Positions 6,403 through 21,298 of a stretch of DNA of 64,000 bases are shown here, one piece after another (the first letter of the stretch is position 1; each line of letters begins with the position of its first letter). The notes beneath the pieces are model-generated. The model saw only the letters and a program-made list of their open reading frames with translations, ran no database searches and was not told the DNA's origin. Source of the DNA: an uncultured Sphaerochaeta sp. (GTDB taxonomy: Bacteria > Spirochaetota > Spirochaetia > Sphaerochaetales > Sphaerochaetaceae). A program made the position numbers and the translations under genes. The stretch spans positions 891,757 to 955,756 of the forward strand of contig NZ_OY763408.1 in the NCBI RefSeq assembly GCF_963667405.1, read 5' to 3'.

Positions 6403-6590
6403 CAAGTTATCTTATCTTTTATTCTTTAGGATGCTTATATTATATATTAAGCTTAATTATATATAATAAAGCTATTGGCTAATAAGCTTATTGGTCAATA
6501 ATCAAAATTAAGCTTAATAGCCCAAGAGCCAATTAAGCTCTTTGGGCTAATTAAGCGCTAATAAGGCTATTTACCAAATAGTCTTTTGAT
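6373..6590. other. candidate replication origin
   Basis: Two perfect DnaA boxes, TTATCCACA at 6373-6381 and 6384-6392, lie in direct orientation with an 11-bp period. An AT-rich tract follows (6403-6590). It holds two identical 12-bp palindromes ATTAAGCTTAAT (6446-6457 and 6507-6518) and further TTAAGC and AATAAGCT copies. DnaA boxes plus an AT-rich repeat block is the classic plan of a plasmid or phage origin. The boxes lie inside the end of a gene, and no separate Rep gene is seen in the window, so this is a prediction. Confidence 0.5.
6519..6548 (-). terminator. hairpin at the 3' side of the repressor gene
   Basis: AGCCCAAGAGC pairs with GCTCTTTGGGCT (one bulged T) around a 7-nt loop. It lies just beyond the end of the leftward repressor gene and may stop transcription from it. 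There is no long T-run. Confidence 0.4.
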
Positions 6591-6921
6591 GGGAAATTTC
6601 ATGTTCGACAAACTCACCAATCATTCCAACGTAGTCATTATCGCACAAGGTGAGCAGATAACCGATTTCCATGATTTTCTTGTCATTGATGACAACAGAG
6701 TATTTGACATCAAACCCTCTTTCCTCCTCCCCTGTCATGAGCCATCGAGGAGAAACCTTGAAGTAGTCAGCAACCTTCATGAGAAGATCTGCCCTTGGTA
6801 TGGTGTTTCTCTTCATGGACATCGAAATGAAGGACTGTGACAAATCCAGACGCTTTTGTAGTTCTGTCTGATTCATCTTGTGGACACTTAGCAATTCTTG
6901 GAGCCTATCCCAAAATGTCAT
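6571..6921 (-). CDS. XRE-family phage repressor
   Basis: A 116-residue protein. Residues about 5-60 are a helix-turn-helix of XRE/CI type (LQELLSVHKMNQTELQKRLDLSQSFISMSMKRN...PRADLLMKVADYFKVSPRWLMTGEEE). The C-terminal part is short, with no peptidase domain, so it is not a LexA-like self-cleaving repressor. It is divergent from the rightward gene at 7053, with repeats in between. The likely role is the lysogeny switch of the element. Confidence 0.8.
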   Translation of the reverse strand: MTFWDRLQELLSVHKMNQTELQKRLDLSQSFISMSMKRNTIPRADLLMKVADYFKVSPRWLMTGEEERGFDVKYSVVINDKKIMEIGYLLTLCDNDYVGMIGEFVEHEISHQKTIW

Positions 6922-7476: not shown

Positions 7477-7731
7477 ATGGAGCGTGAATACATCAAGCAT
7501 TTGGAGAAGACGCTGGAAGAAACTCAAAAGATCTTGAAAGAAGCGGTTGAGAGGGTTGAGAGCATGAAATGGTCAAGAGACCACGCTCAAGAGGAGTTGG
7601 AAAAATACAAGCGCTATTGGCGTGAGGAAATGGCCGAGACCAAAAAGGTCAGAGAAGAGCTTGAAGCACAAAAAAAGGAGCAGGAAGTAGCCGCTTCCAA
7701 CTCCTCCGATAACCTCAAGGAGGCAATCTGA
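7477..7731 (+). CDS. small coiled-coil phage protein
   Basis: 84 residues, almost wholly a charged heptad-type helix (HLEKTLEETQKILKEAVERVESM...ELEKYKRYWREEMAETKKVREELEAQKKEQE). GAGGAG precedes ATG 7477. The stop overlaps the start of the exonuclease gene (TGATG), so the two are translated together. A structural or accessory role in recombination is possible but not shown. Confidence 0.6.
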   Translation: MEREYIKHLEKTLEETQKILKEAVERVESMKWSRDHAQEELEKYKRYWREEMAETKKVREELEAQKKEQEVAASNSSDNLKEAI

Positions 7732-8675
7732 TGTTGATAACCAATAAATTTGGCTTACCCGAACCTTACTACAAAAGCTGTCTGAAAGACAATCATCCGA
7801 GATTTGGCTGGGACACTTTTTCGGTCACTGAGCTGATGAAGGGGACCAAAGACATCATTCTCACCAGACGGCATTGGGAGGAGCTGGAACAAGATTGTGT
7901 GGATATGATCTGGACAGTCTTCGGGACAGCCGTCCACAGCGTCATGGAGGGCCATGAGAGCGAGAACGAGCTTGCTGAGGAAAGGATCTCAATGCTGGTC
8001 CCTTGCGGCGAGTATGGCGACATTAGGGTGTCTGGTGGCTTTGACCTCTACAACGGCGATACCAAGATTATCACCGACTACAAGACCACTGGTGTTTTCT
8101 CCTATCAGATGAAACTCCAGGAAGGAACCGAGAGCCATTGGGCCAAGCAGCTTCGCATTTACTGGCTGATTCTTGCCAAGGCTGGCTTCCCGGTCAAGGG
8201 TGTTCGCAACACCGTCTTCCTCAAGGACTGGAGCAAGACCAATGCAAAGCGGGACCGTTCCTATCCTCAGAAGCCGATTCTGAACATCGACTACGATTTC
8301 AGCGAGGTTTTCAGAAGTGATGTTGCCGCTGATATGATGGCTGACCTTTTTGCGAAAATCCAAGAAATCCTCTACTACAAGGACAAGCCGGAGGAAGAAA
8401 TTCCCGATTGTTCCGCTGAGGAGCGCTGGGAGCGTGGCGAATGCTGGGCAGTGATGAAGAAGGGTCGCAAGTCAGCAATCAAGCGCCACGACTCCCAATT
8501 CAGTGCAGACCAGCACGCCGAGAATCTTGGAGCAGGTCACTATGTCGAGCATCGGCCGGGTGTCCCTGTGAAGTGTGCCGATTACTGCACCTGTGCCGAA
8601 AAGTGTTCGTTCTACAAGAAGTACATGGCTTCGCTTGAGGAAGGCCGGAAAGAAGAGGAGACCATCAATGAGTAG
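7731..8675 (+). CDS. PD-(D/E)XK exonuclease, Cas4/RecB-like
   Basis: A 314-residue nuclease. GTAVHSVMEGH (about residue 65) is the first helix of RecB-type nucleases; GGFDLYNGDTKIITDYKTT (about 100) gives the D-x-n-D-x-K active site; KQLRIYWLILAKAG is the QhxxY-like helix. Four C-terminal cysteines (CADYCTCAEKC) resemble the iron-sulfur clasp of Cas4 and AddB. It lies directly before the ERF annealing gene and overlaps it, forming the usual phage exonuclease plus annealase recombination pair. Confidence 0.8.
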   Translation: MLITNKFGLPEPYYKSCLKDNHPRFGWDTFSVTELMKGTKDIILTRRHWEELEQDCVDMIWTVFGTAVHSVMEGHESENELAEERISMLVPCGEYGDIRVSGGFDLYNGDTKIITDYKTTGVFSYQMKLQEGTESHWAKQLRIYWLILAKAGFPVKGVRNTVFLKDWSKTNAKRDRSYPQKPILNIDYDFSEVFRSDVAADMMADLFAKIQEILYYKDKPEEEIPDCSAEERWERGECWAVMKKGRKSAIKRHDSQFSADQHAENLGAGHYVEHRPGVPVKCADYCTCAEKCSFYKKYMASLEEGRKEEETINE

Positions 8676-9480
8676 CAATATTTACCAAGCAATGGCTGAA
8701 GTCATGAAGGATGTTGAGGCAATCGGCAAGGACCAGCAGAACAAGCAACAGGGCTTCAAATTCCGTGGCATTGATGATGTCTACAATGCGGTCCATCCAA
8801 TCTTTGCCAAGCATGGTGTGTTCACCGTTCCTACCGTTCTCAGTGAGAGGACGGAGGAAAGGCAGACTAGAAGCGGTGGAAACCTCATCTACCGCATCCT
8901 TACCATGAAGTACACTTTCTTTGCCTCCGATGGGTCCAGCGTTGAAGCTGTGGTCATTGGTGAGGGAATGGACAGCGGTGACAAGGGAGCCAACAAGGGT
9001 ATGGCAATCGCTCACAAGTATGCCCTCCTCCAGACGCTCTGCATTCCTACCGAGGATATGGTTGATCCCGATTCAGAGGTGCCGGAATCGAGTACCAGGA
9101 AGCCTGATACAGGAAGGCCTGTGCAGCAGAACAGACCAGAGCCTTCAAGGAAGCCGGAAGGCAAGCCGTATGACCCTGCAACGGCATCCCTGCCTCAAGT
9201 GGCAAGCACGACCAAGGCAATCATGACTGATGTTAACCCTATCGTAAGAGGAGTATTCACGGTCAAGCGTGGCTGGAACCAGATTGTGGACCTCTGCTCT
9301 GGTGACAAGGAATTTGCAAAGGGCCTGTTCGCTCAGTTCGGTGCTGATTCATCCGACAAGATAACCTACGAGATTTACTTGGATGTGTTCAAGGCAATCA
9401 AGTCTCCCGGTGGTGAGGCTGGCCCGGAGTCGTTCGAGGGAGACCCTCTGGATGATGTTCCGTTCGGGGCAATCGCATGA
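8668..9480 (+). CDS. erf: ERF-family single-strand annealing protein
   Basis: 270 residues from ATG 8668 (GAGGAG just upstream). The N-terminal 130 residues match the ERF family: IYQAMAEVMKDVEAIGKDQQN..QGFKFRGIDDVYNAVHPIFAKHGV, then the typical GEGMDSGDKGANKGMAIAHKYALLQTLCIPTED. A flexible Pro/Arg-rich linker follows, and the tail is acidic (DPLDDVPF), like an SSB tail. ERF proteins anneal complementary ssDNA during phage recombination and circularisation. Its partner is the exonuclease just upstream. Confidence 0.9.
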   Translation: MSSNIYQAMAEVMKDVEAIGKDQQNKQQGFKFRGIDDVYNAVHPIFAKHGVFTVPTVLSERTEERQTRSGGNLIYRILTMKYTFFASDGSSVEAVVIGEGMDSGDKGANKGMAIAHKYALLQTLCIPTEDMVDPDSEVPESSTRKPDTGRPVQQNRPEPSRKPEGKPYDPATASLPQVASTTKAIMTDVNPIVRGVFTVKRGWNQIVDLCSGDKEFAKGLFAQFGADSSDKITYEIYLDVFKAIKSPGGEAGPESFEGDPLDDVPFGAIA

Positions 9481-9887
9481 AGCTGACGTTCTTGGTCAAC
9501 GGTGGGGACTTCCGAGTCCCTGCCGGATTCGAGAAGGAGTTTGAGGCAATCCTTGCCCAAGCTCTGAAAGGTGATGGGAACATCAAGGTCACAATCGAGC
9601 CAAATTACCAGCAGAGGACGCTGAAGGAGAATGCTTACCTTCATGTGCTTTGCAAGCGTTTGGCAGAGATGGCTGGGGGAACGGCTGAGGATATGAAAGA
9701 GATGGCAAAGGCTAAGGCTGTCTCACTTGGCTACCCGGTTGAGACCGATGAGGAAGGAAATCCTGTTATTGGGGAATACGGAATCAAGGGCATTCCATCC
9801 AGCCAAGCTAATGTTGGGGAATGCAAGCTACTGATCGAAGCCGTTCATATGCTGGCTTCGGAGAACGGTTACAGTCTGGAGGACTAG
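9477..9887 (+). CDS. NinB-like recombination protein (tentative)
   Basis: 136 residues, start overlapping the erf stop. The pattern YQQRTLKENAYLHVLCKRLAEMAGGTAEDMKEMAKAKA, then IPSSQANVGECKLLIEAVHMLASENG, resembles NinB-type proteins (lambda Orf family), which bind ssDNA and SSB. Position between erf and ssb supports a role in recombination. The match is by pattern only and some conserved NinB residues may be missing. Confidence 0.5.
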   Translation: MKLTFLVNGGDFRVPAGFEKEFEAILAQALKGDGNIKVTIEPNYQQRTLKENAYLHVLCKRLAEMAGGTAEDMKEMAKAKAVSLGYPVETDEEGNPVIGEYGIKGIPSSQANVGECKLLIEAVHMLASENGYSLED

Positions 9888-9889
9888 TT

Positions 9890-10300
9890 ATGGCAGATAT
9901 GTGTTCAATCATGATTACTGGAAGGCTGACTTCTGACAGCGAAATCAAATATGCAGGACAGACACCGATACTCAAGTTTTCGGTTGCGGTTGGCCGATAC
10001 GACAAAGGCCAGACAACTTCATCCTTCTTCGATGTGGTGCAGTTCTCAAGGAACGCAGAGTCACTGGTCGGGAAGCTTACCAAGGGCAAGCCTGTTGTTG
10101 TCCGTGGCGAGATGAGGCAGGAATTCTGGAATGCCAACGATGGTTCCAAGAGAAGCCGTTGGGTGTTGATGGCAGACTCGTTTGGTGTCCAGCCTCTCTA
10201 CATACAGCAAGATGAGCAACGCTACGGCGGAGCTACCACCCAAGACATGTATGGCGGTCCAATGGGTGAAGATGATGATTTGGATGATATTCCGTTCTAG
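9890..10300 (+). CDS. ssb: single-stranded DNA-binding protein
   Basis: 136 residues. An OB fold (MITGRLTSDSEIKYA..TPILKFSVAVGRYDKGQTTSSFFDVVQFSRNAESLVGKLTKGKPVVVRGEMRQEFW) is followed by a short linker and the acidic tip DDDLDDIPF, the docking site for partner proteins. ATG 9890 follows TGGAGG. It protects ssDNA in replication and recombination of the element. Confidence 0.92.
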   Translation: MADMCSIMITGRLTSDSEIKYAGQTPILKFSVAVGRYDKGQTTSSFFDVVQFSRNAESLVGKLTKGKPVVVRGEMRQEFWNANDGSKRSRWVLMADSFGVQPLYIQQDEQRYGGATTQDMYGGPMGEDDDLDDIPF

Positions 10301-10813: not shown

Positions 10814-11272
10814 ATGCCGAGTGCGAGAGAGAAGGCGCTGACTGCATTCCAGAAATACCGAAGATACTTACTTGCTGATGGGAATGGTTACGCCACGTGC
10901 ATATCGTGCGGCAAGGTTGGACATGTTTCCAAGATGGACGGAGGTCACTACGAAAGCCGGAAAAACAAGGCCACGGAGCTTGAGCCGGACAACGTATGGC
11001 CCCAATGCAAATATTGCAATGGTCCGCTGTCTGGGAACCACGTTGCGTATAGGAATCGTCTGATCTCACGCATCGGCATGGAACGTTTACAGCGATTGGA
11101 GAATATGGTCATGGCTTCCAAAGGCTCTGAGGAAGCGATGGAGAGCTTGTCTGAGGTGGATAGGAAAGCGATTACCACCAAGAAAAGGGACAAGGATTAT
11201 CTGGAGATTGCAAAGCGATATGACAAGCTTGCAAAGGAACTGGAGAAGGAGAAGTTGATAAAAAATGCGTAA
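10814..11272 (+). CDS. ninG: NinG/Rap-like recombination endonuclease
   Basis: 152 residues. CISCGK (about 32) and CKYCN (about 70) frame the motif MDGGHYESRKNKATELEPDNVWPQC, which is the lambda NinG (Rap) pattern, a zinc-bound HNH-like endonuclease that cuts branched DNA such as Holliday junctions. The C-terminus is helical and basic. It sits in the recombination module with erf, ssb and the exonuclease. It is separate from the Tas protein downstream, so it should not be read as a fused HNH domain of that system. Confidence 0.8.
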   Translation: MPSAREKALTAFQKYRRYLLADGNGYATCISCGKVGHVSKMDGGHYESRKNKATELEPDNVWPQCKYCNGPLSGNHVAYRNRLISRIGMERLQRLENMVMASKGSEEAMESLSEVDRKAITTKKRDKDYLEIAKRYDKLAKELEKEKLIKNA

Positions 11273-11603
11273 GATGTTTTTCTTCCGGCACTACATGACA
11301 GAGCTTCAGAACCCTAACATCGCCGCACTATTCAAGCGGCATGGTGCAAGGGGGTACGGATTGTACTGGTATCTTCTGGAGCGCCTCTACTCAAAAGATA
11401 CCAACACTCTGACCTACAACAAGGACCTTGAGAAAGAGCTTGCAAAGGCTCTGAGAATGCCTTGCTGGAGGGTGAGGACGATAGTCAAGGACTTGGAGGT
11501 ATTGAGGCTTGTGGAGATCACCTCAAGCGGTCTGCTCTCAAGCAGCAGGGTTGATTACGAGGTTAAGGAAGTGCGAGAGACGATGGCCAAGAAGCGGGGG
11601 TAG
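11265..11603 (+). CDS. DUF4373 (Lin1244/Lin1753-like) protein, short form
   Basis: 112 residues. MFFFRHYMTELQNPNIAALFKRHGARGYGLYWYLLERLY is the Lin1244/Lin1753 N-terminal domain of phage replication or DnaD-like proteins, a winged helix. Family members usually carry a long C-terminal part; here the protein ends at residue 112 (AKKRG). The TIGR-like repeat array begins 10 bases after the stop. A truncation by acquisition of the array is possible. Confidence 0.7.
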   Translation: MRKMFFFRHYMTELQNPNIAALFKRHGARGYGLYWYLLERLYSKDTNTLTYNKDLEKELAKALRMPCWRVRTIVKDLEVLRLVEITSSGLLSSSRVDYEVKEVRETMAKKRG

Positions 11604-11613
11604 GCCACCCCCA

Positions 11614-12490
11614 CCTTACCAAGAACGCTGATGAGGCAAGTCAAACGAGTGAATCACGCAAGCTAATAACAGCAAGTAAACGGAGTGAGCCAAAACCAAA
11701 GAAACAAGCAAGTTAATGGAGTGAATCATACCTTAGAAAAGAGCATCTGAAGTGAGTGAACCAAAATTGGAAAAAGAAGCACCGTTTGGAAGTGAACCAT
11801 TAGGTAGTGACAAGAGCAAAGGCGAGAGTGAACCGATACGCCGAGATATACAGAATAGAAAAGTGAACCAAAAGAAAGGATAAGTGCGAATTCGTAGAGT
11901 GAGCCAACCAGAAGACGAGAACAGGTAATGAGAGCGAACCGATAGCCCGAATTGAGGCAACCAAGTACGAGTGAACCAATCTCAGTGAAAAGACCATTTA
12001 TTCATAAGTGAACCGAAAACGGATACAAGAGCAAAAACGCAGAGTGAACCGAAAACAGATAGAAAAAGCATAAATCCAAAGTGAACCAACGGCCACGAGA
12101 AAAGCAAGCGCCGGGAGTGAGCCTGCAACCATAAGAAAATCAAAACAAATGAGCGGACCAATACAATAGAAGAACCAAGTGCATGAAGTGAACCAACAGC
12201 GACTACAAGAACAAGTGCCGGGAGTGAGCCAACAGCCACTACAAAAGCAAGTGCGGGGAGCGAACCAACATTAAGTGATGAGCATATATATTGAGTGAGC
12301 CGACACTGTGAACAACAGCAAAATTTTTAAGCGAACCATTTCTTGAGAATTCAAGCGTATATAACAAGTGGACCAATGAAAAAAGTACCAAAGCAGACCT
12401 GCAAGAGTGAACCAATCGGAGACGAGTTTTCCAATACAAATGAGTGGACCGTAATGAACGAAGAAAATCGAATTTAAAAAGTGAACCAAG
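11614..12490 (+). repeat. TIGR array (tandem interspaced guide RNA), about 24 units of 36 bp
   Basis: A core GTGAACCA (variants GTGAGCC, GCGAACC, GTGGACC) recurs at 11649, 11685, 11721, 11756, 11792, 11828, 11863, 11899, 11934, 11971, 12008, 12044, 12081, 12117, 12153, 12188, 12224, 12260, 12295, 12331, 12368, 12407, 12444 and 12481. A worn copy is near 11614. Spacing is 35-37 bp, once 39. A second weaker motif, about ANAARAGCA, ends at offset 26 of most units (for example units at 11649, 11685, 11756, 12008, 12081, 12224). Between the motifs lie two variable stretches of about 9 nt. Edge motif, spacer A, loop motif, spacer B on a 36-nt unit is the published TIGR layout. Units at 12081, 12188 and 12224 share spacer sequence, as do 12008 and 12044, showing local duplication. 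The last edge motif runs into the ribosome-binding site of the tas gene. There is no open frame of note on the plus strand. Confidence 0.85.
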
Positions 12491-12500
12491 GAGAGTAAAA

Positions 12501-13298
12501 ATGTCTGAGTACGAAGTTAAGAGACAGAGAATCAAAGGAATCGTGAGAACCATCTATGACTACCAAGATATCAGGATCAAGATGGGAAACCGCCTGAGAT
12601 TCAAGGCTGATGGGTCTGACCAGAAAGACAACGGAACGGCGATGATAATCAACAATGAGGACATCCCTTCCCTTGTAGATGCCTTCCAGGATTCGAAAGA
12701 TACCGAGGAAGCATTGGTCAAGTCGCTGAAGAGAGAACTGAAGGGAATCAAGGTCTACGATGATTTCCTCAAGAACGTAAAGGGTGTCGGCCCCATGATG
12801 GCAGCAGTCATCATTGCCGAGTATGACATTCACAAGGCCCATACCATTTCCGCAATGAACCAGTTCACTGGCCTCAATCCGGGAATGGTGTATGGAAGGA
12901 AGAAGTCTGGAGATAATATTGTTGTCACCGATACGCTCATCAAGGGCGACAAGCTCACCGCTGGCTTCCTCTCACCGTACAATGTGAGGCTTCGGACAAA
13001 GATGATCGGCGTTCTTGCCCCATCTTTCATCAAGAGCAAATCACCGTATTCCAAATTCTATTACGACTACAAGGAGAGGCTGAAGAATAAGGAGACCATG
13101 ATTGAGGGTAGGGACAAGGCTTGGAACGAGACAAGCGACCTGCACCGTCACAACGCAGCAATGAGGTACATGATTAAATGCTTCATCCGGGACCTGTATT
13201 ACGTCTGGAGAGAGAGCGAAGGCCTTCCTACCAGATGCCCCTACGAAGAAGAGTACCTTGGACGCAAACACCATATTTATGAAGGAGAGATAGCATGA
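12501..13298 (+). CDS. tas: Tas protein: Nop-domain partner of the TIGR array, no nuclease
   Basis: 265 residues. The helix-hairpin-helix core KNVKGVGPMMAAVIIAEYD...ISAMNQFTGLNPG (about residues 91-128) is like the C-terminal domain of IS110 transposases, the fold class shared with the Nop domain of box C/D snoRNP proteins. A helical N-terminal part (1-90) precedes it, and a basic C-terminal helix (HNAAMRYMIKCFIRDLYYVWR, 217-237) follows. No RuvC or HNH motif is present and no IS110 DEDD domain, so it is not a transposase. With the 36-bp array directly upstream it fits a Tas protein without nuclease. Known Tas proteins bind tigRNAs and use their two spacers to find DNA. Here that would mean RNA-guided binding without cutting. 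AAGGAG (12488-12493) precedes ATG 12501. Confidence 0.82.
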   Translation: MSEYEVKRQRIKGIVRTIYDYQDIRIKMGNRLRFKADGSDQKDNGTAMIINNEDIPSLVDAFQDSKDTEEALVKSLKRELKGIKVYDDFLKNVKGVGPMMAAVIIAEYDIHKAHTISAMNQFTGLNPGMVYGRKKSGDNIVVTDTLIKGDKLTAGFLSPYNVRLRTKMIGVLAPSFIKSKSPYSKFYYDYKERLKNKETMIEGRDKAWNETSDLHRHNAAMRYMIKCFIRDLYYVWRESEGLPTRCPYEEEYLGRKHHIYEGEIA

Positions 13299-13486
13299 AA
13301 AAGCCATGTCAATATTGTGAGTTGGGAGATGATTCAAAGTCTCTTCATTGTGAGATTGGGAGCGGAGAAGCCTTCGTGGAAAGAGGATATATCTACGTGA
13401 ATCTTGGTTCGGTTGATGCTCAGTTTAGTATTAGGTATTGCCCGAATTGCGGAAGAGAGCTTGATATACCTGGAGATAATTCATGA
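13295..13486 (+). CDS. small zinc-ribbon phage protein
   Basis: 63 residues with CQYCE at the N-terminus and CPNCGRE near the end, a two-knuckle zinc ribbon of the kind seen in many phage accessory proteins. Its ATG overlaps the tas stop (ATGA), so it is translationally coupled to tas. Whether it takes part in the TIGR system is unknown; the pair is worth testing for co-occurrence. Confidence 0.6.
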   Translation: MKKPCQYCELGDDSKSLHCEIGSGEAFVERGYIYVNLGSVDAQFSIRYCPNCGRELDIPGDNS

Positions 13487-15378: not shown

Positions 15379-15873
15379 TTGGACAAACAAGCGAAATGCA
15401 ACCAGCAATTATTCAATACCCGCATTTCACGCAAGTGGATGGAAGCAGATGAACAGGCAAGAGAGCTTGAAAGCAAGGATGGCCAGGATCGGATTATCCT
15501 GCTGGCTGATGATGATGTATATTCCATACTTACATTGGGCGAATGCTACAAAGCCTTTTCACATTACGAAGATGAAGCAGCTAAGGAAATCCACATCGAG
15601 GAAGCATTCTACAATGCACAGGATGGGATGCCAATGTATGCCTTCTTCGATCTGATTCTATCCGTGAGAAACGGTAGTTCAGATTATTTCAACAGGGCAT
15701 ACACCATGATGAAGGCCAAGTATTTTGATATCACTGAAGCCGAGAGAGACATGGATCGGGAAATTGGAACGATGCTAAGGGCCAAATTTCATCCATGCTC
15801 CGACTTGTTGTACTTGACGCACTACCTGAAGGAGCATTGGGAGAAATTTGGAAGACCATTCATTTGGGACTAG
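15379..15873 (+). CDS. unknown phage protein, probably own transcript
   Basis: 164 residues from TTG 15379, with GGGGGAG at 15368-15374. It follows the terminator, and TTGACC near 15254 may be part of its promoter. The protein is acidic and helical with YDFxxAERDMDREIGTM-like stretches. No domain is recognised. Its end overlaps by four bases the end of the convergent integrase gene. Confidence 0.5.
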   Translation: MDKQAKCNQQLFNTRISRKWMEADEQARELESKDGQDRIILLADDDVYSILTLGECYKAFSHYEDEAAKEIHIEEAFYNAQDGMPMYAFFDLILSVRNGSSDYFNRAYTMMKAKYFDITEAERDMDREIGTMLRAKFHPCSDLLYLTHYLKEHWEKFGRPFIWD

Positions 15874-17115
15874 ATGATGTTGCTTAGGCGATCACGAAGA
15901 CCTTGAAGTTGTTCGAGTCTTCGTTTCCCGTCTCTGTGGTCATAACCTTGTCGATATTTTGTGTGACCCATAAGTTCTTCAATCTGGCTTTTCTCAACTT
16001 CGCCCGCAATCATTGTTTGGAAAGTATGGCGTAGACAGTATTGGGTTCGTCCCTTGAGGTCTATGCCTGCTTTCGTAGCAAAAGAATTGAAGTGTTTATT
16101 TGAAGTAAAAACTGATAAATAGCCACCATCAATCATAAACAAATATTCTTGATCTTTTGGCATTCTTGCTATGTGTTTGTCTAAAATCCTGCAACACTGG
16201 TCAGAAAGCAGACCGATTTTTGATTTCATGCCTTTGTCAGTCGTTTTGATTCGCTTGACTACTTCTTTTGTGAAACTATTTACAGATTGGGAAGTATAGA
16301 TTCCCTTGAGTTCAGGGTAGTAGTTTGATCTTGTCAACCCAGCAATTTCCCCTGGCCTAAAACCTGTACATTTCATGATAAGGAAATAACTAGCCCACAT
16401 GAGGCCTCCCCAAACCCAAATAGCTGTGTTGTCAAATTCTGGAAACATTATTGCCATTTCTTCTTCTGTGAAAGGCTGTCTCGGATTCGACTCCTCCGAA
16501 ATTTTGTCAACTTTCTCGCACGGATTTGATTCGATTAGGCCTAAGTTGACAGCTTCTTTCATGATGTATGACATGCACATGAGAACTTTGTTTTTTGAGT
16601 TGGACGCCATCTGCTTTCCGCTTGCAGCTCTCCTCATAGAAATGAACCATTCATCAATCATGATATGGTCAATATTTCTCAAATAGACGTTGCTGAAAGT
16701 TGGCAAGATATAATTGCGGAGTCTTCCATCCATTGTGTAGTAATAATACTCGTTGTATCGACGGTTCTTTCTTTCGTTTTTTGCTCTGTATGACCTTTCG
16801 TCAGTTCTGGTGTAAAAACCTTCAGAGAATTCCCCAAAAGTAATATCCTTGCTCTTCCTCTCCCTAAGCTGGCATCGAGCCCAATACGTCGCATTCAATT
16901 CATCGGAGTAGCCTGTTGATATCCAGGAATCTGATCCCTTGAATTGTACTTGAATGTTTCGTCCTTTCCTTCTGATTAATCTGAAGTCTTTGTGTTCTGC
17001 TTGTTGCAGATAGTCTCCAGTGTTTCTTAGCTGGGCTTCAGCCCATTTGATTGCATCTTCTTTGGTATGGCAACCAGAAGAGACCCACTTTTCAGTCCCA
17101 TCGAAAAAAACCTGA
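15870..17115 (-). pseudogene. int: phage tyrosine integrase, main 3' part (gene split by IS)
   Basis: The C-terminal catalytic domain is intact: TGFRPGEIAGL (first Arg), K in the strand after ...FTKEVVKRIKTTDKGMKSK, YCLRHTFQT (HxxR box with Tyr for the first His), LMGHTKYRQGY (His and likely catalytic Tyr). Upstream is a core-binding domain. The frame continues past the first possible start (TTG 16898) to the IS edge at 17126, coding two arm-type DNA-binding repeats (VQVFFDGTEKWVSSG and IQVQFKGSDSWISTG). The remaining 18 codons with the real ATG lie beyond the IS at 18856-18908. Joined, the gene is 433 codons. A shortened protein from TTG 16898 could still be made but would lack the arm-binding domain. 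Confidence 0.85.
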
Positions 17116-17125: not shown

Positions 17126-18855
17126 CAATGTCATTAAGTTAAGAACGGCAAGCTGAATAAGAAAGAAGCTATCAATGAAGAAACCAACGTTTCTGACTTG
17201 ATAGCTTTCATTTTCAGTTCCGAAGTTATTATTAGGGGCATGATGATCCGAGCCTGCGAACATTTGGAATTGTGCGAGGCATGGGTTTCCGCTAGAATGT
17301 AACAAGTCAAGCTGCTCTGTAGATGAACGGGATAAAAGAACGGTGTTCGAGAATTCGGGAAAATGCTCTGTCGTTCCTTACCGGTTGAATGGTCATCGTG
17401 AGCTCCTTGACTATTTTCTTGATCGTGATAGTCGGGTCCCTTCCCGAGGCGTACAGTCTCAGTGTCTTGGACAGGTCGGAATAGCTGACCTTGTACAGGA
17501 GCTTGCGGTTTTTTATCCTACGGGACAGACTCCTGCCGAAAGCGACCAGTACCGATGTGCAGATGTTGTGGAAGATCATCGAAAGGATTATTTCACCAAT
17601 GGCTGCAACCTTCTTCCTGGTGTTGCTGAATGACGAACAGTCATCATACTTCAATTGGCGCAAGGTGGTCTCCACGCCCCATCTCAAATGATACAACTCC
17701 TTGAGGTCGGCCATCGAGAACTCCGACTGAGGCAGGCTGGTCAGCAGGACCTCATACGAGGTTTCGGAAAGTTGCAGTCTGACGAGCCTGAAAGAATACT
17801 CGAAGAAATCGATAATGAGCGGACGGCTCTTCAGGACCTTCCCCAAAGGGTTCCTTGTTGCAGGGATGAACTCGTTGATCACGTTCTGTGGGACATAAAT
17901 ATAGTCAGGATAAATTGCTGGGTTCCTGTGCACGGTAGAGCATCGGGTGTATTTCCTGGTGACAACAGTATCCATCAGACCGTCCTCACCTACCATGTTC
18001 CGGTACCTTTGGCTGATGCCTGGGGAGTTGAGGTCTTTTGCCCGGATGCAAAAATGGAACCCCAGAGAGGACACCCACATCATGAGCCTATAGCTCTCGT
18101 ACCCCCTGTCGCAGGTGATGATGCTCGGCAAGGGACTGGGGCATCCAGCCATCCGCTCGACCATCTGTTCGCAGGCCTGTATCTCATGCATGTCCTTGTG
18201 GTCCTGGATGACGTAGTCCAGGAAATACCCATCGGGTACGGCAGTGAGGACATTGAGATGAAGCTGGTTGCAGACCTTTCCGTTCGGATTATTGGTCATG
18301 TGCAGCAACGTACCCGCATCATCCTTGTTCGGGTGGATGCTGATGGCGGAACCATCGCAGGCCACCAGCAGATACTTGTTCTTGATCAGCGTGAACGGCA
18401 CATCAGTATCCTTGAAATGGTCGAACAGGGCCCGATATGCCTGTACGCCCAGCTTGTCACGATGCTGGATGTATGCTGACGCTGAGGGCCTGTCAGGACC
18501 GACACCGAAGTAATGCCTCAGGTTCTCCTTCATGCAGCTTCCGGGAGAAAGCAAGCCGAGCTTGACAACATCACTGAAAGATTGACGCCTGAACCGGGTG
18601 AAATCGGCTTTGGGATTGCTGAAATGCATCCGGAAATCATCAGGGTCAAGGTCCAATCTGGCGACGGATTTAGCGATTTTGTTTTCTAGATAATTCCTCA
18701 TGATATAATTGTTTACCTCTATTTAATTATATCATATCTATATTATTTTGATACTATAAAATGTACAAAAAAGAAGGCAACACATAGCCGAAGCCACATA
18801 TTGCCTTGCTGTTTTGGTCTCACAAGAATGTCATTTTGCTAACTTAATGACATTG
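17126..18855 (-). mobile_element. IS4-family insertion sequence, 1730 bp
   Basis: Perfect 16-bp terminal inverted repeats: CAATGTCATTAAGTTA at 17126-17141 and its reverse complement at 18840-18855. The element holds one transposase gene and has a 10-bp target duplication, fitting IS4-type elements (IS231/IS4Sa-like groups make 10-12 bp). Inside, after the transposase, an inverted repeat AAGCTATCAA/TTGATAGCTT near 17165-17206 probably terminates transcription. Upstream of the transposase a 9-bp inverted repeat GATATAATT/AATTATATC may control expression. The insertion lies in codon 18 of the integrase. Confidence 0.92.
17307..18701 (-). CDS. IS4-family transposase
   Basis: 464 residues, full length. 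DDE residues are visible: ACDGSA (about 114), TCDRGYES (about 197) and the YREK signature YHLRWGVETTLRQLK (about 344), with the exact Y-2-R-3-E-6-K spacing. The long beta-strand insertion before the last acidic residue is typical of IS4. The frame is intact, so the copy may be active. Confidence 0.93.
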   Translation of the reverse strand: MRNYLENKIAKSVARLDLDPDDFRMHFSNPKADFTRFRRQSFSDVVKLGLLSPGSCMKENLRHYFGVGPDRPSASAYIQHRDKLGVQAYRALFDHFKDTDVPFTLIKNKYLLVACDGSAISIHPNKDDAGTLLHMTNNPNGKVCNQLHLNVLTAVPDGYFLDYVIQDHKDMHEIQACEQMVERMAGCPSPLPSIITCDRGYESYRLMMWVSSLGFHFCIRAKDLNSPGISQRYRNMVGEDGLMDTVVTRKYTRCSTVHRNPAIYPDYIYVPQNVINEFIPATRNPLGKVLKSRPLIIDFFEYSFRLVRLQLSETSYEVLLTSLPQSEFSMADLKELYHLRWGVETTLRQLKYDDCSSFSNTRKKVAAIGEIILSMIFHNICTSVLVAFGRSLSRRIKNRKLLYKVSYSDLSKTLRLYASGRDPTITIKKIVKELTMTIQPVRNDRAFSRILEHRSFIPFIYRAA

Positions 18856-19028: not shown

Positions 19029-19112
19029 TGCCGAAAGCGGGGCTTGAACCCGCACGCCCTTGCGAGCAAGGGATTTTAAGTCCCTTGTGTCTACCAATTC
19101 CACCATTTCGGC
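19029..19112 (-). tRNA. tRNA-Leu (anticodon UAA)
   Basis: An 84-nt class II tRNA. Acceptor GCCGAAA pairs with TTTCGGC, with discriminator A at 19029. The anticodon loop is CTTAAAA, giving UAA for codon UUA. A long variable arm (TTGCTC...GGGCG type) and T-loop TTCAAGC are present. CCA is not encoded. The element's integrase gene faces its 3' end, so the 3' half of this gene is the likely attachment site. Confidence 0.95.
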
Positions 19113-19841: not shown

Positions 19842-20057
19842 ATGAGTAGGATAGAAACAAGCAGTGATATCGGAAAGCTCGTGTGCTCAAAGAGAAAGGA
19901 ACTCGGACTCACCCAAAAGGAAGCAGCTGGGCTTTGTGGGGTAGGTGTGCGTTTCTGGTCTGAATTGGAACGAGGGAAGAGCTCTCTTCATCTGGGAAAG
20001 GTCCTCTTGGTACTTACGCGTTTGGGGCTGGAAATACAGGTGGAGGGACGAGTATGA
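19842..20057 (+). CDS. hipB: HipB-like antitoxin, XRE family
   Basis: 71 residues, mostly a helix-turn-helix (IGKLVCSKRKELGLTQKEAAGLCGVGVRFWSELERGKSSLHLGKVLLVLTRLGLEI). It overlaps the hipA start by four bases (ATGA), the normal antitoxin-toxin coupling. It should neutralise HipA and bind the three operators upstream. Confidence 0.88.
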   Translation: MSRIETSSDIGKLVCSKRKELGLTQKEAAGLCGVGVRFWSELERGKSSLHLGKVLLVLTRLGLEIQVEGRV

Positions 20058-21298
20058 CACTGGTTGTGTCCCAGAACAATCGAAGGGTAGGCCTTCTGGT
20101 CGGTACAGCCGATCGGGGCGTGGTTTTCTTGTATGATCCTCACTATCTTGCCGATCCCAACGCAAGGGCAATTTCTCACTCTCTCCCACTCCAGGAGCAA
20201 GAATTCTCCTCCAAGCAGTGTCTGCCTTTTTTCTCAGGCCTCCTTCCTGATGGGGAGATGAGGCGCAGAATCAGTGAATACCTCCATCTTGCTGAATCAA
20301 GCACCTTGAGGTTGCTTGAAGCTTTGGGAAGGGAGTGTGCCGGCTCGCTGGTTTTGCAGGATGAAGTGGATCCAGAACCCAACTATTCCGTACAGGGAAC
20401 ATACAGAAAAGTGGAGGAGGATAAGCTTGCAGAAATGATTCGGCACATGGATGTTCGGCCGTTGCTTCTTGGTGCAAAAGGTCTTTCCCTCGCCGGAGCC
20501 CAACAAAAGATAGCGCTTGCCCGATTTTCCGGTGATTGGCATGTACCCTTGGATGGGGCTGCCTCAAGTCATATCCTCAAGCCTTCAAAGGCTCCTTTCC
20601 AGGATTTGGCTGTGAATGAATACCTCTGCATGCAGTTGGCAAAGATGTGTGCACTCCCTGTTGCAGATACAGAGCTTGTGATGGTGGAGGACATCCCGGT
20701 CTTTGTCACCGAGCGGTATGATCGAAGGAGGGTGAGCGAGGATCCCCCGGTGATCGAGCGTATGCATCAGGAGGATGCTTGCCAAGCGCTTGGCATCATG
20801 CCTGACCGGAAGTATGAGGAAGACGGTGGCCCCGGCTTGGGGCAACTTGCATCCTTGATGCAAAAGCTCTCTGCGACTCCCATCCTTGGGTTGCAGAAAC
20901 TGTTGCATCTGGCCATCTTCAACTTCCTTATCGGCAATTGTGACGCCCACGCGAAGAATATCTCGTTTGTGTATGATGGGGAGAACCCATCTGGAACACT
21001 AGCCCCTTTTTATGACCTTGTGAGTACCCGTTGCTATGCACAGCTTTCTCCAAAGCTTTCCATGAGAATAGGGGGCGAGTATCGTATCGATTCCATTCGA
21101 AAGGAACACTTCCTGAAGCTTGCCCAGGAGCTTGGGGTAGGCAAGCGGTATATGCTTTCCCTGTTGGAAGAGATGTCCGGGCACGTGAGGCAGGGATTCG
21201 AAGCGCTTGCGGCTTCCCCTGATGCAGGACGCTGGGGACCCTTGCTCTCCCTGTTGAGGCAACAGACCGAAGGACGGATGCAGCAGATTCGGTTCTGA
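20054..21298 (+). CDS. hipA: HipA-like toxin kinase
   Basis: 414 residues, usual size. The N-terminal HipA domain includes LPFFSGLLPDGEMRRRISEYL. GAQQKIALA (about 157) is the nucleotide-loop region; the kinase core shows NFLIGNCDAHAKNISF (about 291, catalytic Asp and metal-binding Asn) and LAPFYDLVST (about 315). HipA kinases phosphorylate targets such as glutamyl-tRNA synthetase and cause growth arrest. All key residues are present, so the toxin is probably active. A strong terminator follows. Confidence 0.9.
   Translation: MTLVVSQNNRRVGLLVGTADRGVVFLYDPHYLADPNARAISHSLPLQEQEFSSKQCLPFFSGLLPDGEMRRRISEYLHLAESSTLRLLEALGRECAGSLVLQDEVDPEPNYSVQGTYRKVEEDKLAEMIRHMDVRPLLLGAKGLSLAGAQQKIALARFSGDWHVPLDGAASSHILKPSKAPFQDLAVNEYLCMQLAKMCALPVADTELVMVEDIPVFVTERYDRRRVSEDPPVIERMHQEDACQALGIMPDRKYEEDGGPGLGQLASLMQKLSATPILGLQKLLHLAIFNFLIGNCDAHAKNISFVYDGENPSGTLAPFYDLVSTRCYAQLSPKLSMRIGGEYRIDSIRKEHFLKLAQELGVGKRYMLSLLEEMSGHVRQGFEALAASPDAGRWGPLLSLLRQQTEGRMQQIRF

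Follow-up and report, generated by a model that had tools for sequence, protein, structure and literature searches.

We analysed a 64,000-nucleotide stretch (hereafter, the window) of the 3.23-Mb genome of an uncultured Sphaerochaeta sp. (contig NZ_OY763408.1), in which an array of short alternating repeats runs into tasA, a gene for a 265-residue Nop-domain protein (coordinates in Table 1). An initial annotation, made from the sequence letters, had matched the locus to the 'recently described' TIGR-Tas family by its unit length, double-spacer plan and partner gene; the main text of Faure et al. (2025; PMC12045711) names the nuclease-free form of this family TasA. The match was borne out by homology, predicted fold, the alternation of the repeats and the retention of the array in relatives.

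The array comprises 24 copies of a 10-nt edge repeat (type RAGYGRRCCR) from 11647 to 12488, with successive steps of 36, 36, 35, 36, 36, 35, 36, 35, 37, 37, 36, 37, 36, 36, 35, 36, 36, 35, 36, 37, 39, 37 and 37 bp. A degenerate, 5'-truncated edge lies upstream (ACCTTACCA, 11613-11621) and implies one further unit, hence 24 units in all; similar stubs (TTACCG and ATACCA) were seen by eye before the arrays of loci L006 and L007/L001. In the real 900 bp the chain of edge motifs had 24 members, whereas in 200 dinucleotide shuffles the longest had 6 (mean 2.3), so that the period of about 36 bp over 840 bp reported initially is real, with steps of 35-39 bp. All 23 copies counted agree at four edge positions. 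Aligning the units, as had been proposed, also defined the loop repeat (type NANAARAGCA) and two spacers of 8-9 nt, A and B, which together make up the guide of a unit; the best fit is 8 nt (8+10+8+10), and the length of about 9 nt first suggested is compatible too. The loop, originally described as a second, weaker motif, is indeed weak in the window, where a logo of 23 left-aligned units showed a single A of at least 1 bit between edges, an effect due in part to the varying unit length; the motif is clear (AGAAA[AC]CCA) in the majority of the family's arrays. Edge and loop alike end mostly in CA in the window, with few variants; end pairs elsewhere in the family (TTA/CTA in L067, CTA/CTA in L086, TTA/CTA in L116) give hints of box C and box D motifs co-varying between the two repeats.

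The array ends 12 nt 5' of the tas ATG, its last edge touching an AGGAG that we take to be the ribosome-binding motif of the gene, in agreement with the arrangement first described. The hairpin in the leader (11596-11612) is nothing out of the ordinary (z -0.76); in a comparison of five leaders, only those of the window (L004) and L005 had it. A search of 11200-13400 against Rfam, with E values up to 1 admitted, was negative.

The encoded protein is homologous in sequence to TasH (E 2.3e-14) and TasR (E 9.2e-10), and its predicted fold is the Nop-domain Tas fold, which confirms the IS110/Nop-like core recognised at the outset; the comparison of structures recommended there returned the Tas family and also the transposases IS621 and ISCro4. 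The closest solved relative, in both sequence and fold, is the TasH of Salicola phage CGphi29 (SpTIGR), to which we assume the TasH entries of the Protein Data Bank (PDB 21kl, 9w04 and others) belong. TasH carries an N-terminal HNH nuclease and TasR (PDB 9mty) an N-terminal RuvC domain, whereas the alignment of the window protein starts only at residue 61 of TasH and residue 107 of TasR, and neither domain was recognisable in it by Pfam or structure alignment, as expected from the claim that it has no nuclease. Nop5, the relative from box C/D small nucleolar ribonucleoproteins (listed with Prp31), works on RNA together with L7Ae and fibrillarin. A 63-residue protein with CxxC pairs, whose start overlaps the tas stop (ATGA), adjoins tas also in genomes G008, G011 and G013 and in viral contigs L001/L002, with no match in the loci of G018; it is a possible partner of TasA.

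The testable defining features of a TIGR-TasA system (homology, fold, lack of a nuclease, dual repeats and an array next to tas) are all present, the typical terminator is missing, and the locus is a member of this class. As in the dual-repeat arrays described in the main text of PMC12045711 (e.g. FpTIGR of Flavonifractor plautii), a solo Nop-domain Tas protein stands beside an array in which edge and loop repeats (8-12 nt) alternate and each unit of about 36 nt holds two spacers; a 5'-truncated first edge and a phage or provirus location are further common points. The same source gives SpTIGR, the TasH system, a total spacer length of 16 nt, as in the 8+8 of the window. The window differs from that description in having 24 units rather than the usual 5-15, degenerate repeats, a spirochaete host, and an array that lies entirely 5' of tas and forms its leader, the last edge adjoining the ribosome site of the gene; the TasR motifs given there (UG...CCA) also differ from its edge and loop types. 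The words Sphaerochaeta, spirochaet- and Treponema do not occur in the main text of that paper. Since nuclease-free TasA is already named in it, the system is not new as a kind.

Table 1. Features of the array, of tasA and of the surrounding phage genes (window positions), and positions of the tRNA guide in marine arrays
Feature	Position	Strand	Evidence or remarks
TIGR array, 24 units (23 with full edges)	11613..12488	+	motif alignment, shuffle control
First full edge repeat, GAGTGAATCA	11647..11656	+	motif alignment
Example unit: edge AAGTGAACCG, spacer A AAAACGGA, loop TACAAGAGCA, spacer B AAAACGCA	12006..12041	+	
Last edge repeat, AAGTGAACCA, directly 5' of the likely tas ribosome-binding site	12479..12488	+	
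Likely ribosome-binding site of tas, AGGAG	12489..12493	+	sequence
tasA, 265-aa Nop-domain Tas protein without recognisable nuclease domain	12501..13298	+	ATG to TGA; homology, predicted fold
63-aa small protein with CxxC pairs	13295..13486	+	start overlaps tas stop
Anti-restriction-like protein among phage genes	3450-4367		phrog_7245, E 1.7e-73
Phage repressor-like protein, divergent from early genes	6571..6921	-	
Phage exonuclease, same gene row as tas	7731..8675	+	
Erf-like annealing protein, same gene row	8665..9480	+	
Single-strand DNA-binding protein, same gene row	9821..10300	+	
NinG/Rap-like recombination endonuclease, same gene row	10814..11272	+	
Replication-initiation-like protein, directly upstream of array	11265..11603	+	
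Integrase, near right end of phage genes, 2.6 kb downstream of tas	15870..16898	-	
tRNA guide (locus:position)	L216:7121, L219:9563, L220:9563, L221:9764, L222:9563, L223:8017, L203:9300, L205:7344		

The surroundings are those of a phage, as first proposed, although the wording 'prophage-like element' was too weak: the element is an integrated phage, whose terminase, head and tail genes lie beyond the left end of the window. On the - strand there are genes for tail, major head, protease, head-tail adaptor and terminase; the window itself then has the anti-restriction-like gene, the divergent repressor and, on the + strand, a row of exonuclease, Erf, NinB, single-strand DNA-binding protein (SSB), NinG, replication-initiation-like gene, array and tas. 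The order exo-erf-ssb-ninG-rep-tas is kept in five relatives, namely L012 (G008), L062/L047 (G018), L051/L052 (G011), viral contig L061 and L011 (G013, same genus), a 5752-bp contig whose end cuts exo. Array and tas are likely part of one early transcript, the simplest reading of this row. The prophage ends were not found; one exact 15-bp repeat was not convincing as an attachment site. Between the integrase and a tRNA-Leu gene (19029-19112) we noted by eye a transposase-like open frame of 464 aa (17307-18701), and beyond it a 414-aa protein (20054-21298), HipA-like by eye, with a weak PADLOC match to PDC-M03A, a candidate defence family (E 6e-7). In another locus, a 1351-aa protein among phage genes (L044:4211-8263, - strand) had no PHROG match at E up to 1e-3.

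A tas gene was found in seven of the 100 genomes searched around the host, its own included, and the array was kept in all seven; the loss of the 36-bp period where the protein persists, named initially as a refutation, was thus not seen. The arrays have 24 edges in the window, 20 in L005, 15 in L006, 27 in L007, 20 in L008, 9 in L009 and 5 in L010 (two outlying edges left out in each of L007, L008 and L009), and 21 in viral L001/L002. Three alignments against viral contigs gave at least 80, at least 80 and 44 tas loci, many of them overlapping; scans of viral contigs by the Erf-like protein and by the terminase yielded 1 and 6 loci only. Arrays with at least three complete units were present in 167 of 175 loci examined, and all 214 chains, with both strands scanned, run in the tas direction. 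For the family consensus we took in 60 loci of at least 80 and used 54 (615 of 618 units kept). In most of these arrays, edges like AGCGAGCCA or AACGAGTCA and loops like AGAAAACCA or AGAAACCCA stand 18 bp apart, in regular 36-bp units in most relatives. L064, at 50% tas identity, has the edge GAGCGAGCCA, the loop GATRAACACA and 8-nt spacers as in the window.

To follow how guides change, we compared orthologous units, counting only those that were equally long and had no more than 8 differences (18, 17, 15 and 15 units in the pairs compared). The arrays of L004 (the window) and L005 (G008) align unit by unit, apart from units lost or gained internally (L004:1079, 1115 and 1366) and differences at the 5' end. 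Spacers differed at 10 of 288 positions and loops at 15 of 181; in L001/L007 the counts were 10/240 and 19/148, and the two pairs pooled gave an odds ratio of 2.9 (P 2.2e-4), the spacers being slower. Fourfold-degenerate sites of tas differed at 3/96 in L004/L005 and at 16/95 in L001/L007, in which the spacers are clearly slower than these sites. Because spacers lag behind loops, and in L001/L007 also behind fourfold sites, the guides are probably under selection, more firmly so in the L001/L007 group than in the pair of the window. At larger distance (tas identity to the window group 80% in G018 and 76-78% in the L001/L007/L008 group), no two guides with at most 3 differences in 16 were common to the groups L004/L005, L006 and L001/L007/L008. 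In L001, L007 and L008, neighbouring units (e.g. L001:3620 and 3656) have a common spacer B, AAGTAGAT, with different spacers A, which suggests an exchange of half guides.

Some guides of the window are near-duplicates of one another. The ones at 12079, 12186 and 12222, like their L005 copies, would fit a single coding site whose variants are mostly synonymous. We do not claim such a codon phase: among two-difference pairs (1428 guides), 11 of 27 within-spacer distances were divisible by 3, with about 7 expected if positions were evenly spread, and pairs with three or four differences (19/68 and 40/157) showed no excess.

Taken together, these data make it very probable that the locus is a TIGR-TasA system of an integrated phage, its array likely co-transcribed with tasA; judged from the missing nuclease, it would act by RNA-guided DNA binding without cutting. 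Faure et al. (PMC12045711) state in their main text that three questions are open: what the natural targets are, where spacers come from and what nuclease-free TasA does. By analogy with the biochemistry of TasR, TasH and TasA in that text, a host RNase would cut within every edge repeat in the presence of Tas, each dimer of TasA would hold one processed tigRNA of about 36 nt, and spacers A and B would pair with opposite strands of a 16-18 bp site, melted and sharply bent. We propose that, once the early genes are on, upon infection or induction, TasA would settle on sites of competing mobile elements and block their transcription or replication. Processing of the last edge, or TasA bound to it, could be expected to adjust the translation of tasA as well, because this edge adjoins the ribosome site of the gene.

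Several observations weigh against this reading. Typical TIGR arrays are followed by a terminator (PMC12045711, main text), whereas no rho-independent terminator was found on the + strand in 11200-13400, where the array runs into tas; nor was a promoter recognised near the array. Both repeats are more degenerate in the window than in most relatives, so that decay is possible. The window guides had no target in their own 64 kb, in 0.42 Mb of window and relatives or in 1.21 Mb of prophage-rich Sphaerochaeta-group DNA, and three well-conserved ones had no exact site in 119 family genomes, the host included. Spacers of L004/L005 (3.5% differing) are not slower than the fourfold sites of tas, and the spacer-loop contrast, though in the same direction, is not significant in L007/L008 (4/272 vs 6/173, P 0.20) or L001/L008 (14/240 vs 13/146, P 0.30), two pairs that are not independent of the main ones.

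The target scans relied on the overhang geometry of TasR (8-nt 3' overhangs, the cut lying 5' of the base that pairs with base 5 of the spacer; PMC12045711, main text), from which we derived that a site should read as A followed by the reverse complement of B, A+rc(B). We scanned this join and the opposite one, rc(B)+A, with gaps of 0-2 (window; 0.42 Mb, 100 guides), 0-3 (1.31 Mb, 652 guides, L073 and L099 left out; 1.21 Mb of Sphaerochaeta-group DNA, 92 guides) or 0-4 (3.04 Mb, 1555 guides), with shuffled A/B pairing as the control. No clear overall excess over shuffling emerged in any pool up to 3.04 Mb. The integrase gene holds the sole A+rc(B) site with two mismatches in the window (16884), against an expectation of 1.35 from shuffling. 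In 0.42 Mb, rc(B)+A with one mismatch gave 4 sites (shuffles 1, 0, 4 and 2). In 1.31 Mb, A+rc(B) at gap 1 gave 3 exact sites vs 0.7 (shuffle maximum 2), and rc(B)+A at gap 0 gave 42 sites with one mismatch vs 28.3 (maximum 42); in 1.21 Mb, A+rc(B) at gap 1 with one mismatch gave 8 vs 3.3 (maximum 8). In 3.04 Mb, the 11 exact sites of A+rc(B) at gap 1 (3.5 by shuffling, maximum 4) come from just four guides, among them the tRNA guide described below; rc(B)+A at gap 4 gave 7 exact sites vs a maximum of 6 in only four shuffles, and at two mismatches rc(B)+A at gaps 2 and 4 and A+rc(B) at gaps 1 and 3 were slightly above the maximum of four shuffles.

Individual candidates fared no better. Matches of 16/17 in a tail-fibre-like 1002-aa open frame (G019/G024) and in a 204-aa open frame (G011/G001) were at about chance level, as was the one match in viral contigs of a guide common to three marine groups. 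A degenerate pattern built on the near-duplicate guides gave 44 one-mismatch matches in 26 genomes of the genus, and 26 with the reversed control; we discounted these matches, which included no exact one and in several cases repeated one site across related genomes. No target was found for the window array; unsequenced mobile elements are the natural suspect.

One guide of marine TasA phages, first seen as an exact match in tRNA genes in the 3.04-Mb scan, stood out. It consists of A CTAACCAAA and B ATAGCTCAG, with variants CTAACCAGA and ATAACTCAG, and occurs in eight arrays of four groups ({L203, L205}, {L216}, {L219, L220, L221, L222} and {L223}) that have no other guide in common at up to 2 mismatches; within the third, L221 has 5-6 guides in common with L219/L220/L222, this one included. 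Among 91 array groups (175 arrays) it is the most widely shared guide, in five groups (five rather than four because L221 splits from L219 under the sharing threshold), the next guides reaching three. It is kept while nearly all other guides of these arrays turn over. Joined, it reads ATA[GA]CTCAGT[TC]TGGTTAG, a pattern with 42 matches on 41 stretches of viral contigs. Of these matches, 37 fall within tRNA genes called by ARAGORN, near position 7 of the tRNA and in the D-arm (19 tRNA-Ile, about a dozen of them near-identical copies, 5 tRNA-Met and others); the exact L203/L205 combination had a single occurrence, which lies in no recognised tRNA gene. When 1639 guides were compared with the 58 distinct tRNAs from the fetched loci, one matched exactly (8+8) as A+rc(B) and none in the other order, with no exact match in 200 shuffles of spacer B; at one mismatch there were 2 matches, one being the L223 variant of the same guide (shuffle mean 0.3, maximum 3). 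As the scans were not set up for tRNAs, this result is post hoc. In L216 the unit has an unusual edge, CGARTGCCA, with a 38-bp step before it, and tas is a 294-aa open frame, a length too short to suggest an added nuclease domain. From sequence alone, the join still matches the published TasR geometry and names a target class. Our guesses are that a phage binding tRNA genes would block rivals that integrate there, or would lower the tRNA supply of the host.

The tRNA guide bears on a possible, if rather unlikely, alternative, in which the guides serve to regulate the host or the phage itself (e.g. at phage operators or tRNA genes) and are not aimed at competing elements. Its persistence across otherwise mostly different arrays, and the near-duplicates of the window, which would be expected for a stable rather than a foreign target set, speak for such a role. 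However, no guide of the Sphaerochaeta group came within 1 mismatch of the 58 tRNAs (a comparison covering 30 of 48 host tRNA places) or of two rRNA-operon loci, the integrase site at 16884 is at the level expected by shuffling, the three conserved guides lack exact sites in the family genomes, and the Sphaerochaeta groups compared above have no guide in common.

It is doubtful that the array is a decaying remnant, as its degenerate repeats and units of 35-39 bp might imply. The loop is weakly conserved, the edge is variable and most relatives are more regular; against this, tas is intact and 99.6% identical in G008, where the array is kept, four edge positions never vary, spacers change more slowly than loops, and the repeats of Sphaerochaeta-group relatives are equally loose. 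It also seems improbable that TasA aids the integrase of its own phage by bending DNA near the attachment site, a speculation found in the main text of Faure et al. (PMC12045711). The integrase is close by, TasA is predicted to share the Tas fold and one guide site, at chance level, falls in the integrase gene; since the exact prophage ends were not found, a guide to the attachment site could have been missed. Yet so many different guides would be needless for one attachment site, and tas stands in the recombination and replication row, on the strand opposite to int. That the protein is a fragment of an IS110-type transposase with a repeat-rich bridge RNA is hardly tenable: Transposase_20, the only Pfam family in it, is just over the cut-off (22.1 vs 21.3 bits), the PHROG label is 'transposase' and the fold matches IS621 and ISCro4, but Tas proteins match better in sequence and fold, residues 1-4 of the model align to residues 121-124 of ISCro4/IS621 with the N-terminal DEDD catalytic domain absent, and where those RNA-guided transposases have one bridge RNA the window has a 24-unit tandem array. 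CRISPR-Cas was likewise rejected, the repeats being two degenerate 10-nt motifs rather than long near-identical ones; PADLOC, searched with the window protein, gave no match.

Thus, the TIGR-TasA locus of this prophage belongs to a kind already described, and its interest lies in a comparable set of arrays and in the tRNA lead. In the literature searched (preprints and supplementary tables being outside the search), we found no mention of the Sphaerochaeta-group array set or of the tRNA guide. Spacer constraint and unit turnover are measurable in the related arrays that the prophages of the Sphaerochaeta group offer; tas identity among these is 99.6% and 76-80%, and three of the arrays lie in assemblies of no more than two contigs (G000, G018 and G011). 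The tRNA guide of related phages provides a concrete, testable natural target. Whether TIGR-TasA arrays are evolving phage guide libraries, with tRNA genes as a natural target class, is to us an evenly balanced question; if they are, the spirochaete array would be the same machine, and selection against as yet unsequenced targets would hold its spacers.
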